NCBI GenBank assembly: GCA_902523515.1
Contig: CABYZT010000002.1
Span: forward strand, 124,001 to 188,000
Origin: an uncultured Pelagibacteraceae bacterium
GTDB taxonomy: Bacteria; Pseudomonadota; Alphaproteobacteria; Pelagibacterales; Pelagibacteraceae
Reading direction: 5' to 3'
Length of the DNA: 64,000 nt
Below are positions 46,881 through 50,465 of the stretch, piece after piece. How positions within the stretch are numbered: the first letter of the stretch is position 1; the number at the start of each line of letters is the position of its first letter. A model generated the notes under the pieces. That model ran no database searches. It was not told the origin of the DNA and saw nothing but the letters and a program-made list of their open reading frames with translations. The translations under genes were made by a program, and so were the position numbers.

Positions 46881-48335
46881 ATGAGCCAAAATATAAAAAT
46901 AGATCCCTATGGTTTTAGAGAATATGACGCCCGATGGTTGTATGAGAAAGATATAAATCAATCCGGAATAGAGAATCTCGGAAAAGGGCTTGGAACACAG
47001 ATAAAAATACATACTAAAAAAGATAATCCCAGAATCGTAGTTGGGCATGATTATCGTTCTTATAGTGAAGAAATAAAAACAGCTCTTAAAAAGGGATTAT
47101 TATCTACAGGATGCAATATAGAGGATATTGGCCTGTCGTTATCACCAATGGTTTATTTTGCACAATTTAATTTAGATGCAGATGCAGTCGCTATGGTTAC
47201 AGCTAGTCATAATGAAAATGGTTGGACTGGTGTGAAAATGGGAATCAAAAAAGGATTAACTCATGCACCTGAGGAAATGAAAGAATTAAAAGAAATTACC
47301 TTAAATAAAAAGTTCACAAAAGGCGAAGGTAGTGAAAAACAAATAAAAGATTTTGATAAAATTTATAAAAAAAACCTAATTAGTAAAAACAAAATTAAAA
47401 AAAAAATTAAAGCTGTGGTTGCTTGTGGAAATGGAACAGCGGGTGTTTTTGCCCCAGACATTCTAAGAGGTATTGGATGTGAAGTTATTGAGTTGGATTG
47501 TAACCTAGATTGGAATTTTCCTAAATACAATCCAAATCCTGAAGATTTAGAAATGCTTCATGAGATCGCAAAAGTAGTTAAAGAAAATAATGCTGATATA
47601 GGTTTTGGATTTGATGGTGATGGAGATAGGGTTGGTGTTATTGATGAAAATGGTAATGAAATATTTTCAGACAAAATAGGTCTCCTAATAGCTAGAAATT
47701 TATCAGGTAAGCATAAAAATTCAAAATTTGTAGTAGATGTAAAATCAACAGGTTTATACTCAAAAGATAAAATCTTATTAGAAAACAATTGTGAAACAAT
47801 TTATTGGAAAACAGGTCATTCTCATATTAAAAGAAAAGTGAACACTGAAAAAGCATTAGCAGGCTTTGAAAAAAGTGGTCATTTCTTTTTTAATAAACCT
47901 TTAGGATATGGTTATGATGATGGAATTAACTCAGCAATTCAAGTTTGTCACTTATTAGATAATCAAAATAAAAAAATAAGTGAAGTTATTAGTGAATTAC
48001 CTAACACATTTCAAACACCAACAATGGCACCATTTTGCAAAGATGAAGAGAAGTATATTGTTGTTGAAGAGCTAGTTAAACAAATTAAAAAATTAAAAGA
48101 AAATAAAACAGAAATAGATGGCCAAATTATTAATGATATTTTAACTGTTAATGGAGTTAGATTTTCATTTGAAGATGGTTCTTGGGGACTTATAAGAGCA
48201 TCTTCAAACAAACCATCTTTAGTTATTGTAACTGAAAGCCCAACATCAGATGAAAGAAAGAGAAAAATCTTTGATTTTATTGACGATTTGTTACAAAAAA
48301 CAGGTAAGGTCGGTGAATATGATCAGAAAATTTAA
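46881..48335 (+). CDS. Phosphomannomutase/phosphoglucomutase
   Basis: An alpha-D-phosphohexomutase of 484 residues. It contains the phosphoserine loop TASHNENGWTG (Ser is the phosphate carrier), the Mg site DGDGDRVGV, and the sugar-binding GFEKSGHFFF. It interconverts hexose 1- and 6-phosphates for cell-envelope sugars and nucleotide sugars. Length and motifs fit the ManB/AlgC-like group; preference between glucose and mannose is not clear. It is divergent from nrdA. Confidence 0.9.
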   Translation: MSQNIKIDPYGFREYDARWLYEKDINQSGIENLGKGLGTQIKIHTKKDNPRIVVGHDYRSYSEEIKTALKKGLLSTGCNIEDIGLSLSPMVYFAQFNLDADAVAMVTASHNENGWTGVKMGIKKGLTHAPEEMKELKEITLNKKFTKGEGSEKQIKDFDKIYKKNLISKNKIKKKIKAVVACGNGTAGVFAPDILRGIGCEVIELDCNLDWNFPKYNPNPEDLEMLHEIAKVVKENNADIGFGFDGDGDRVGVIDENGNEIFSDKIGLLIARNLSGKHKNSKFVVDVKSTGLYSKDKILLENNCETIYWKTGHSHIKRKVNTEKALAGFEKSGHFFFNKPLGYGYDDGINSAIQVCHLLDNQNKKISEVISELPNTFQTPTMAPFCKDEEKYIVVEELVKQIKKLKENKTEIDGQIINDILTVNGVRFSFEDGSWGLIRASSNKPSLVIVTESPTSDERKRKIFDFIDDLLQKTGKVGEYDQKI

Positions 48336-49462
48336 TTTTTAAAATTATCTTCGTCGTTTTTATTTTCTAAATTATCGTTATCAGCTTTAGTTTCTAAATT
48401 ATCGTTATTAACTTTAGTTTCTAAATTATCGCCATCCCGTTTGTTTTCTTGTTCAGGAGTTTCATCGCTATAAAACTTTCTAACTAATTCCTCCTCTTTT
48501 AGTCGTTGTTCTTCATCAAATTTTTTCTCCCATTCTTTCATACGCCTGTTTTCCTCATCTTCTCTCTCTTTTTGAGCAATTTCAGCTAATCTAATTCTCT
48601 CGTTTTCTTCATCAATTCTTTTTTGTCTTTCCTCCTCTATTTTCAATTCTCTTTCTCTTTGACGTCTTTCATTTTCTTTATTTATTCTCTCACGTTCAGC
48701 TTCTTTAAGTTCTTTTTCTTTATTTCTTAATTCCTCTTCTTTCGCTCTTTGCTCAGCCTCTTCTTTTAAAATTTGTCTTTGAATTTCTTGTTGTCTTTCA
48801 GTTTCTAGATCTCTTAATCTTTCTTCCATTTCTTTAAGTTTTTCTTGCTCATATTTCAGCTTCCTAGCTGCCTCTCTTAATCTTTGTTCTTCCTCAAGTC
48901 TATTTTTCCTTTCAATTTCTTTTAATCTTATTTTTTCTTGTCTTTCTTTTTCTTTTTCATCTCTTTTCTTTTGAGCTTCAATTTCTTTATTTTTTAATTG
49001 TTCCTCTTTAATTTTTATATTTTCTTCTCTAATTCTTTGTCTCTCTAACATTTTAAGCCTTAAATCTTCTTCTTTAAGCTTTCTGGCTTCCTCTCTAAGT
49101 TTTCTAGTTTCTTCGTCTTTAATTTTTTTCTGTTCTATTTTAATTCTTTGAACTTCTATCTTTTGTCTTTTTTCTTCATTCTTTTTTTCTTGTTTTTCAT
49201 TTTCAATGATTAATTTTTTTTGAAAAAGAAGCTTCTTTCTTTCTTCTTTAAGTTCGTCTTGTTTAGCTTTTTTCGCTAATTTTTTTTCTAAAATTAATTC
49301 TCTTTTCTTCTCTTTCTCTAATTGTTTTTGTAATGCTAAATCTTTTTTAACTTTGTTTTTTTTAAAATCTTTTAAAAGCGAGGAAAACTTATTTTTAGCT
49401 TTATCTATTGGATCAAATAAATTATTTTTAATATTTTTATTAATGTTTTTTATTGAAACCAT
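48332..49462 (-). CDS. Highly charged coiled-coil protein (hypothetical)
   Basis: A 376-residue protein from the ATG at 49462 (a TTG at 49477 is less likely). Almost the whole length is an alternating Glu/Lys/Arg-rich helix with regular hydrophobic positions, suggesting a long coiled coil or single alpha-helix. There is no signal peptide or membrane helix. The C terminus has nine-residue repeats (NLETKADND type). No family is recognised; low complexity would make similarity searches unreliable. It overlaps the convergent phosphohexomutase stop by four bases. Confidence 0.75.
   Translation of the reverse strand: MVSIKNINKNIKNNLFDPIDKAKNKFSSLLKDFKKNKVKKDLALQKQLEKEKKRELILEKKLAKKAKQDELKEERKKLLFQKKLIIENEKQEKKNEEKRQKIEVQRIKIEQKKIKDEETRKLREEARKLKEEDLRLKMLERQRIREENIKIKEEQLKNKEIEAQKKRDEKEKERQEKIRLKEIERKNRLEEEQRLREAARKLKYEQEKLKEMEERLRDLETERQQEIQRQILKEEAEQRAKEEELRNKEKELKEAERERINKENERRQRERELKIEEERQKRIDEENERIRLAEIAQKEREDEENRRMKEWEKKFDEEQRLKEEELVRKFYSDETPEQENKRDGDNLETKVNNDNLETKADNDNLENKNDEDNFKN
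48364..48436. repeat. 27-bp tandem repeat in coiled-coil gene
   Basis: About 2.7 copies of a 27-base unit starting TTTCTAAATTATCG on the plus strand (units at 48364, 48391 and 48418). In frame on the minus strand this encodes nine-residue units ending in NLET or NLEN. In-frame unit length implies copy number can vary without breaking the gene. Confidence 0.85.
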
Positions 49463-49513
49463 TTTTAAAAGTATCAATTAGAATAATAACACTAAATATT
49501 ATGTATGGCTAAA

Positions 49514-49542
49514 TTGAGTTTTTTTTTCAGACTAAATACAAC
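49514..49542 (+). promoter_or_regulatory. Predicted promoter for candidate small RNA
   Basis: TTGAGT (49514-49519), a 17-base spacer and TACAAC (49537-49542) form a sigma-70-like promoter on the plus strand in the gap between two minus-strand genes. It would start a transcript near 49549. The -10 matches four of six consensus bases. Confidence 0.4.
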
Positions 49543-49548
49543 TTAAGA

Positions 49549-49674
49549 TTGTTTGGGTTTAAATTAGTTGATAAATTGCATTTTCAACTATTAAGTGTTC
49601 ATAAGTATTTAAAGAATCACTTAGTTTGTATTAGTGAGGTGATGGAGGGAGACTGAAGTCACCTCTTTTTTTTT
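49549..49674 (+). ncRNA. Candidate structured small RNA (about 126 nt)
   Basis: Three successive hairpins lie in the gap between two minus-strand genes: SL1 TAGTTGA/TCAACTA (49565-49571, 49584-49590), SL2 TAAGTG/CACTTA (49592-49597, 49618-49623, extendable by a G-U and an A-U pair) and SL3 GAGGTGA/TCACCTC (49636-49642, 49659-49665) followed by nine T. SL3 plus the T-run is a strong intrinsic terminator that works only on the plus strand, while both neighbours are on the minus strand and the last plus-strand gene ends 1.2 kb away. There is no open frame of note. I do not recognise the family. Confidence 0.6.
49636..49674 (+). terminator. Rho-independent terminator on plus strand
   Basis: A 7-bp GC-containing perfect stem (GAGGTGA with TCACCTC), 16-base loop containing GGAGGGAG, and nine consecutive T. 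It is the strongest intrinsic terminator in the window. Its orientation does not serve either neighbouring gene. Confidence 0.8.
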
Positions 49675-49679
49675 GCTTG

Positions 49680-50465
49680 TTATAATTTTAAGTATTCGTA
49701 AAAAAATTTAATCGAAACCACTAAAAGAAAAATTCCAAAAAACTTACTAATTTTATTCTTATCAATGCTGTGTACTGTTTTAGCTCCTATCCGAGCCATG
49801 AAAGTTGTAATTGGTATAAATATTAAAAAGGCTGGTATGTTTATAAAACCAATACTTAGTGGAAGACTAGAATTTAAATAATTTCCTGAAAGAAGAAATC
49901 CTATTGCTCCAAATAGAGCAATTAGAAAACCTATGGCTGCAGCACTTCCTATAGCTTTATTTATTGAATAACCAAAAAACTTAAGGATAGGTACATTCAT
50001 TACAGCACCTCCTATACCCATAGGAGCAGATATAAACCCAACAAGAAAACCAAGAATTACTTTTAAATGTAGTTTCATTTTAACAATTATGTTTTGCTCT
50101 TTTTCTTTTATTAAAAGTAAGTAAATTCCTAAAAATAAAATCATTATAGAAAAAAATAAAACCAAAGATTTGGTTTTTAGAGAAGCTGCAAAAACAGTTC
50201 CAACAATCACTCCTAGTACAACAAAAACACCGTAATTCTTTACAATATCAAAATCAACTGCTTTAAATTTGTGATGTGTTAAAACTGAAACTGTAGAAGT
50301 TGGTATTATAATTGCAAAAGAAGTTCCAACAGCAAGGTGCATAACATATTCAGGATCGATTTCTAAAGAACCAAAAATAAAATATAAAAAAGGAACAGTT
50401 ATCAACCCTCCGCCTATACCAAATAATCCTGCAACAAAACCAACTGGTATTGCTGTTAAGGCCAT
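49680..50465 (-). CDS. TauE/SafE family anion exporter
   Basis: A 261-residue polytopic membrane protein (about eight helices) with the repeated family motif GLFGIGGGLITVP (about 15-27) and APMGIGGAVMNVP (about 145-157), showing internal duplication. Members export sulfite, sulfoacetate or related organosulfur anions; the substrate here is unknown. Its 3' end lies just after the small-RNA terminator. Confidence 0.85.
   Translation of the reverse strand: MALTAIPVGFVAGLFGIGGGLITVPFLYFIFGSLEIDPEYVMHLAVGTSFAIIIPTSTVSVLTHHKFKAVDFDIVKNYGVFVVLGVIVGTVFAASLKTKSLVLFFSIMILFLGIYLLLIKEKEQNIIVKMKLHLKVILGFLVGFISAPMGIGGAVMNVPILKFFGYSINKAIGSAAAIGFLIALFGAIGFLLSGNYLNSSLPLSIGFINIPAFLIFIPITTFMARIGAKTVHSIDKNKISKFFGIFLLVVSIKFFYEYLKL

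Follow-up and report, generated by a model that had tools for sequence, protein, structure and literature searches.

RNAs of the CsrB/RsmZ type sequester proteins, and the AGGGA of the element described below matches the CsrA-type motif ANGGA. Phages encode mimics of host RNAs, of which RNA anti-CRISPRs and ToxI mimics are examples. In SAR11 strain HIMB5, one sRNA and several protein-binding candidate motifs were described in the accessible part of PMC6429828 (Stav et al., 2019), and our element may be among these candidates. Table 1 of PMC2704228 (Meyer et al., 2009), the part of that paper covered here, contains no row naming a pgm or TauE neighbour; rows labelled 'hyp. protein' or 'transporter' could hide the element. 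A Red Sea TSS study (PMC5069720) includes a SAR11 TSS list according to the part covered, and the main text of a pelagiphage transcriptome study (PMC12753301), which has RNA-seq data for HTCC1062 infected with HTVC022P and HTVC027P, does not use the terms small RNA, non-coding, intergenic, hairpin or terminator. A library of open-licence papers yielded no occurrence of the literal GGGAGACUGAA and, among the papers listed, no account of such a pelagiphage hairpin or noncoding RNA.

Here we describe a short SAR11 cassette in a 64,000-nt stretch of a Pelagibacteraceae contig (called the window for simplicity). In the reading that we favour, at a probability of about 45%, promoter-like DNA followed by a covarying hairpin gives rise to a predicted RNA of ~40 nt, which likely acts in trans by presenting the AGGGAGACUGA loop to a putative SAR11 RNA-binding protein. 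Such a hairpin, common to the host chromosome and several pelagiphage groups, points to an RNA-binding factor in the interaction between SAR11 and its phages.

Genomic context and anatomy of the cassette

The element lies in a gap whose two flanks, both on the minus strand, are a coiled-coil-like ORF (48332-49477) and a TauE-like gene (49680-50465). The ORFs of the window bear out the first-pass annotation on the strand of these neighbours and on the closest plus-strand gene upstream, read here as pgm, which ends at 48335; the names pgm and tauE combine our own reading with that annotation and are putative. The long charged coiled-coil-like gene between pgm and the element is present in some genomes and has no match in others, and two loci (L005, L009) carry additional sequence at its position. 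A DNA search of 61 genomes gave a match in each at a lax cut-off, and the first 20 loci (L001-L020, E<=1.6e-4) were taken as real. All 20 contain the loop and have pgm and/or tauE adjoining the element, which has the same orientation as pgm and converges with tauE in those stretches that include both genes. In several loci (e.g. L010, L013-L016) the coiled-coil-like gene is unmatched and pgm ends directly at the element.

The cassette comprises ~95 bp and consists of a 17-nt block, a GAATC site and a TAnnnT element, with the hairpin following directly (Table 1). Its spacing was determined in a larger member set: 185 distinct loop matches had GAATC upstream, excluding the 49 that lack a 5-bp stem gave 136 members, and removing two more for spacing gave 134. 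These members were picked by a pattern requiring GAATC and GGGAGACT, so that the frequency of either within the set is no evidence; the 20 BLAST loci are free of this selection. GAATC follows the start of [T/A]CAA by 30 nt in 101 of the 136 members and by 31 nt in 26.

Table 1. Features of the cassette in the window, with the support for each.
Feature	Position	Strand	Support
Conserved upstream block TTCAACTATTAAGTGTT, likely regulator-binding promoter part (predicted)	49583..49599	+	Alignment of 20 BLAST-chosen relatives
GAATC (a GANTC site)	49614..49618	+	Invariant, 20/20 in the BLAST-chosen alignment
Predicted -10 element TAGTTT (family pattern TAnnnT)	49622..49627	+	TA in 20/20 BLAST-chosen relatives
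Predicted small RNA, ~40 nt, start inferred from -10 position	about 49633..49674	+	-10 position; fold z -2.80
Hairpin with covarying stem, arms 49636-49643 and 49658-49665	49636..49665	+	Three top-ranked covarying pairs of about 5,050; pair counts
Loop core AGGGAGACTGA, common to pelagiphages	49646..49656	+	Relatives' alignment and phage sequences
U-tract, intrinsic terminator in the window genome, not in all members	49666..49674	+	Nine T

TAnnnT is the most conserved part of sigma-70 -10 elements. The -10-like element starts 8 bases past the start of GAATC, leaving a gap of 3 nt, and among the 134 aligned members T is found in 132, A in 133 and the last T in 107, with three variable positions between; the complete pattern occurs in 106 of these members, and 13 of the 20 BLAST-chosen loci have it. 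The distance from TA to the hairpin ranges from 11 to 16 nt (13-16 nt in 132 of 134), while the length of the upstream block stays constant. No -35 element is conserved in the family. A transcription start ~7 bases past the -10 element would fall 0-3 nt before the hairpin, and the simplest reading of the anatomy is that the upstream block represents the promoter and that the RNA consists of the hairpin plus its tail.

The GAATC site belongs to the class GANTC, which we take to be the CcrM methylation motif. The GcrA family was detected in 14 of 16 genomes, the window's own included. According to the accessible part of PMC7987155, GcrA stimulates sigma-70 at promoters with an adjacent methylated GANTC; the cassette's GAATC does not match the extended GcrA motif YGAKTCK quoted in that part. 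Use of the upstream block as a general promoter was rejected, as its exact pattern occurred in 10 of 41 genomes, once each and always at the element, in a weak test that misses known carriers.

Covariation supports a single hairpin

The terminator hairpin, a loop containing GGAGGGAG (49644-49651) and nine T, as listed in the first-pass annotation, are all present in the window. That annotation had placed the hairpin at the end of an sRNA of ~126 nt with three tandem hairpins and a promoter at 49514-49542. The three hairpins do appear in the minimum-energy fold (about 49540-49559, 49565-49590 and 49591-49624), but are not supported as conserved structure. For hairpin 3, compensatory changes were not found among the 20 relatives: 70.5% of cells were paired versus 70.1% after shuffling, and the covariation score did not reach the mean of the shuffles. 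Most of hairpins 1 and 2 falls upstream of the region alignable beyond the nearest relative, and in relatives whose pgm ends directly at the element the upstream part, including the proposed promoter, is coding sequence. A consensus scan did not return this promoter either, which says little, as the terminator, with a loop larger than the scan allows, is overlooked too. The region 49540-49680 (141 nt, all four predicted hairpins) did not stand out in stability, 25 of 200 shuffles folding equally well (z -1.26), and the 42-nt piece 49633-49674 was more stable than its shuffles (z -2.80, 2 of 200 as good). We consider the 126-nt architecture very improbable and predict a transcript at about 49634-49674, ~40 nt long.

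The same covariation test, applied to the terminator hairpin, was passed strongly. In the 134-sequence alignment the three strongest covarying column pairs among about 5,050 are pairs of its stem (U-A/C-G, G-C/A-U and A-U/G-C), each of which is paired in 98-99% of members, and no helix in the upstream block was ranked. In the 20-sequence alignment the hairpin had 93.8% of cells paired versus 89.9% shuffled and 16 double-change cells versus 8.3; two of five covariation measures did not exceed the shuffles. Pairs changed on both sides numbered 3 versus 2.3 in these 20 host sequences (190 of 500 shuffles as high), and further pair types 7 versus 7.9. The loop AGGGAGACU is invariant in all 20 BLAST-chosen relatives. 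A loop-tail pseudoknot, prompted by GGAGAC/GUCUCC in L010, was inconsistent across members by eye and showed no covariation. Exact GGGAGACT occurs at five places in the own genome and forms the hairpin at the element; the other four are not hairpins.

The designation as a terminator applies to the window but not as a general trait. A G+C-rich hairpin followed by a U-tract, as in an intrinsic terminator, is found in the window and in the 84 of 136 members in which a 7-bp stem is followed by 7 or more T within 9 positions; the U-tract is missing in the other 52.

Distribution in SAR11 and behaviour as a unit

The covariance model R1, whose sole paired part is the 3' hairpin, gave matches in 231 of 399 genomes of the genus, many of which are incomplete, and in 39 of the 57 that are at least 90% complete. 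Across the order, matches were found in 161 of 297 genomes, in the genera g1 and g8; a third genus gave one weak match (E 0.06) without the loop. A pattern scan of named genomes returned at least 120 stretches, and among the 80 tested with R1 (L082-L161) the clear matches were Pelagibacteraceae, Pelagibacterales or Candidatus Pelagibacter. When 22 R1-negative genomes (>=92% complete) were searched with laxer filters, 8 gave weak matches, at 10 places, none with the loop. As these near-complete genomes have no acceptable match, the cassette is dispensable. In 9 cassette-less genomes (tauE query, 21 genomes) the pgm-tauE junction was readable and the element was cleanly missing, with the pgm stop codon at or within about 17 bases of the tauE end. 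The remaining cassette-less genomes have different neighbours or reach a contig end (G472, G467). Some cassette-less genomes (L475-L479, L487-L489) carry two tandem tauE copies, about 50% and 55-59% identical to that of the window.

In the sister genus g8 a related block and hairpin occupy another locus, and pgm, tauE and dus had no match in the g8-type stretches compared. A tRNA 3' end lies at most 60 nt upstream in 18 of 28 g8-type loci, and ARAGORN identified tRNA-Ser(gga) in 5 of the 7 loci tested, abutting the element in L267, L279 and L281 and further upstream in two. The tRNA-Ser lies about 0.9 kb upstream of the element in L274 and about 1.4 kb upstream in L269; in L274 the tRNA 3' end is repeated beside the element, as if something had inserted between. 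G405 contig 12 carries two tandem cassettes 480 bases apart (L266:1508-1606 and 1988-2086) with an open frame between them. Given the clean absence, the different locus in g8 and the two copies in L266, block and hairpin travel together as a discrete unit.

In g8 the block opens with a DnaA box of the TTATCCACA type, which reads ATCCACA in 27 of 28 loci (e.g. L267:1495-1620, L279, L281), and g8-type loci often have a second GANTC (GAGTC). The GAATC sites and this DnaA box would fit an element acting as DNA, i.e. an origin, a terminus, a recombination site or a hairpin in single-stranded DNA. We give this reading very little credence: in the complete genome G012 the element lies at 401 kb inside positive GC skew and not at a sign change (sampled windows at 335-623 kb all positive; a noisy sample of 400 of 1,343 kb), and the phage copies described below are in sense orientation at gene junctions. 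A replication origin or terminus, hinted at by the g8 DnaA box, found no support in this coarse skew sample of G012.

Known RNA families and candidate partners

The claim that no known RNA family matches was borne out: with Rfam release 15, five tRNAs were the only matches above gathering in the whole window, the best match in 49400-49750 was AniS (24.3 bits versus a gathering cut-off of 50), the 6S model (RF00013) was unmatched in the gap, and in 12 viral and 12 mixed loci tRNA alone exceeded gathering. The existence of a new plus-strand RNA gene opposite both neighbours, as first proposed, is supported by conservation, covariation and clean presence or absence. Its anatomy was revised to promoter-like elements at 49583-49627, one hairpin and a predicted length of ~40 nt.

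Hfq (PF17209) and CsrA (PF02599) were detected in none of 21 Pelagibacterales genomes, with 5 and 3 of 14 control genomes positive, respectively, and 6S RNA (RF00013) in none of 16 Pelagibacterales genomes. With CsrA, Hfq and 6S not found in the genomes searched, a CsrA-sequestering RNA, an Hfq-dependent trans-acting sRNA and a 6S RNA were rejected. A base-pairing sRNA whose Shine-Dalgarno-like loop binds C/U-rich targets or the 16S 3' end would agree with the predicted fold, which leaves the purine-rich loop mostly unpaired; we regard it as quite unlikely, because the single site of the ten-base loop complement TCAGTCTCCC in the own genome is the antisense strand of the element, one-mismatch sites number 6 further ones versus 14 for a reversed-pattern control, the invariant part reaches beyond the Shine-Dalgarno-like letters, and phages carry the loop in sense and not its complement. 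Within the own genome, a partner antisense to the loop was accordingly discarded, the opposite strand of the element being the one exact site. No second exact copy of the hairpin was found in an mRNA of the own genome, so that a host decoy would be left without a visible host target. Since no base-pairing partner is evident and Hfq, CsrA and 6S were not found, a protein was chosen as the putative ligand; the cold-shock RNA-binding proteins of Pelagibacter treated in the accessible part of PMC2864753 are possible ligands of the hairpin.

The hairpin in pelagiphages

The window by itself gave no sign of a link to phages. Two viral contigs among chance matches carried the hairpin without the block. 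A stem-loop pattern with fixed loop returned at least 120 viral-contig stretches, and two patterns with scrambled loops and the same stem returned 0 and 0. In 37 distinct phage hairpins 98.3% of cells were paired versus 81.1% shuffled, with 66 double-change cells versus 25.2 (0 of 500 shuffles as high); as the contigs were picked by the exact loop and by purine/pyrimidine complementarity of the stem, loop invariance is by construction and the paired percentage is inflated, and the shuffle control retains this purine/pyrimidine make-up. A GAATC-based pattern yielded 64 viral stretches, 4 of which reached E<=1 with R1. In host and phage the loop is kept while the stem changes, which points to a partner, common to both, that recognises the loop.

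Named phages with matches below E 1e-4 were all Pelagibacter phages plus one uncultured marine phage; weaker named matches at E 3-9 (Vibrio, Curtobacterium, Bacillus and others) appear to be due to chance. Seven named isolates carry the exact loop core (HTVC019P, HTVC022P, HTVC131P, HTVC201P, HTVC031P, Jormungand and Ran, the last two identical in the fetched stretch), and in HTVC142P, HTVC304P and HTVC027P one loop base is changed. A variant of the hairpin with the loop GGGAGACU is found in 9 viral contigs and in HTVC011P, where it lies between the genes for capsid and tail tubular protein A. At two mismatches no hairpin was found in the whole records of HTVC010P and HTVC008M or in the fetched stretches of HTVC023P and 023Pt_psg01.

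The hairpin occurs in at least 119 viral contigs, and 119 hairpins among the matches listed were parsed for their gene junction. The next gene was a T7-type primase in 42 (estimated start 25-180 nt downstream) and an HTVC027P-type primase in 43 (3-51 nt; four checked in PHROGs, phrog_21866), i.e. a primase of either type in 85; in 27 it was tail tubular protein A (24-29 nt), with the capsid gene upstream. Thus, 112 of the 119 listed lie at the same three gene junctions, all with the downstream gene on the hairpin strand, and 7 are followed by none of these genes. The records of HTVC022P, Jormungand, Ran and HTVC304P (Pelagivirus) annotate a small ORF separating the hairpin from the primase gene. 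Contigs with the HTVC027P-type primase (e.g. L313, L330, L346, L363, L374) show a second short hairpin of the UUUCC..GGAAA type directly before the shared one. A phage promoter directly before the hairpin was rejected: TAYTTATRG occurs at 4 places in HTVC019P and 6 in HTVC031P, with no repeated promoter at the gaps. The phage junctions suggest control where an abundantly expressed gene adjoins a sparingly expressed one.

The genes before the hairpin in the 119 listed are lysozyme (42), a phrog_2402-like gene (42) and capsid (27), and in several host relatives pgm lies directly upstream. Together with the U-tract in 84 of 136 host copies, this would suit an element that serves 3' ends only, terminating or stabilising the mRNA of pgm in hosts and those of lysozyme or capsid in phages. 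We hold this to be rather unlikely, given that 52 of 136 members lack the U-tract, that the upstream gene in the window is on the opposite strand, and that a terminator has no need of a conserved loop or of promoter-like DNA attached to it.

Alternatively, the cassette could be a host decoy copied from phages. The hairpin would then have its regulatory role in the phage, ahead of primase or after capsid, and the free host copy would titrate a phage-encoded regulator as a small defence element. The identical loop in phage groups with different primases, the patchy presence and clean absence in hosts and the cassette's own promoter-like block speak for such a decoy; it would require a binding protein common to T7-like and HTVC023P-type phages, and the related block at different loci in two host genera suggests old host ownership, making this origin unlikely in our view.

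Proposed mechanism and comparison with known systems

The sequences themselves show the cassette, its conservation, its clean absence, the other locus in g8, the covariation of the stem and the sense orientation of phage hairpins at junctions. In the reading that we favour, the promoter-like block (upstream block, GAATC and TAnnnT) directly before the hairpin would drive the ~40-nt hairpin RNA, possibly regulated via the methylated GAATC and GcrA. The loop would bind a SAR11 protein, with the RNA acting in trans in a decoy-like manner. Phage mRNAs would hold the hairpin in cis to use or titrate the same host factor, and host RNA and phage mRNAs may compete for it as CsrB competes with mRNA leaders for CsrA. 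Counting against this reading are the missing -35 element, the mismatch of GAATC to YGAKTCK, the covariation measures that stay within the shuffles in the 20 host sequences, Hfq and CsrA found in none of 21 genomes, the lack of a second exact hairpin in a host mRNA, the dispensability of the cassette and the missing hairpin in HTVC010P and HTVC008M. The best reading is thus a minimal protein-binding RNA with a ligand common to pelagiphage mRNAs, which suggests that host and virus likely use the hairpin to bind the same cell component.

More tentatively, SAR11 and its phages may share the hairpin with loop AGGGAGACUGA as an RNA 'password', made by the host as a free ~40-nt RNA from a cell-cycle-type (GANTC) promoter and placed by unrelated pelagiphages before primase or behind capsid; the free RNA and the phage mRNAs would compete for a putative protein that determines what becomes of phage replication mRNA. 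The hairpin is a ready bait for finding its RNA-binding factor and may serve as a sequence tag for pelagiphages in metagenomes.

Compared with known systems, the element resembles the SAR11 RNAs of PMC2704228 and PMC6429828, to the extent that these papers were covered, in being a SAR11-specific intergenic RNA. It shares with intrinsic (Rho-independent) terminators the G+C-rich hairpin followed by U in the window genome and differs from them in its conserved loop, the attached promoter-like block and the U-tract missing in 52 of 136 members. Like the phage mimics of host RNAs (RNA anti-CRISPRs, ToxI mimics), it has a phage copy of a host RNA element; unlike them, the phage copy is embedded between genes, and no such defence partner was recognised beside the element. 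The CsrB/RsmZ-type RNAs have many hairpins where the element has one, and their protein CsrA was found in 0 of the 21 genomes searched, but they share with it a hairpin with a GGA-containing purine loop and the recurrence of the same hairpin in mRNAs, here those of phages.
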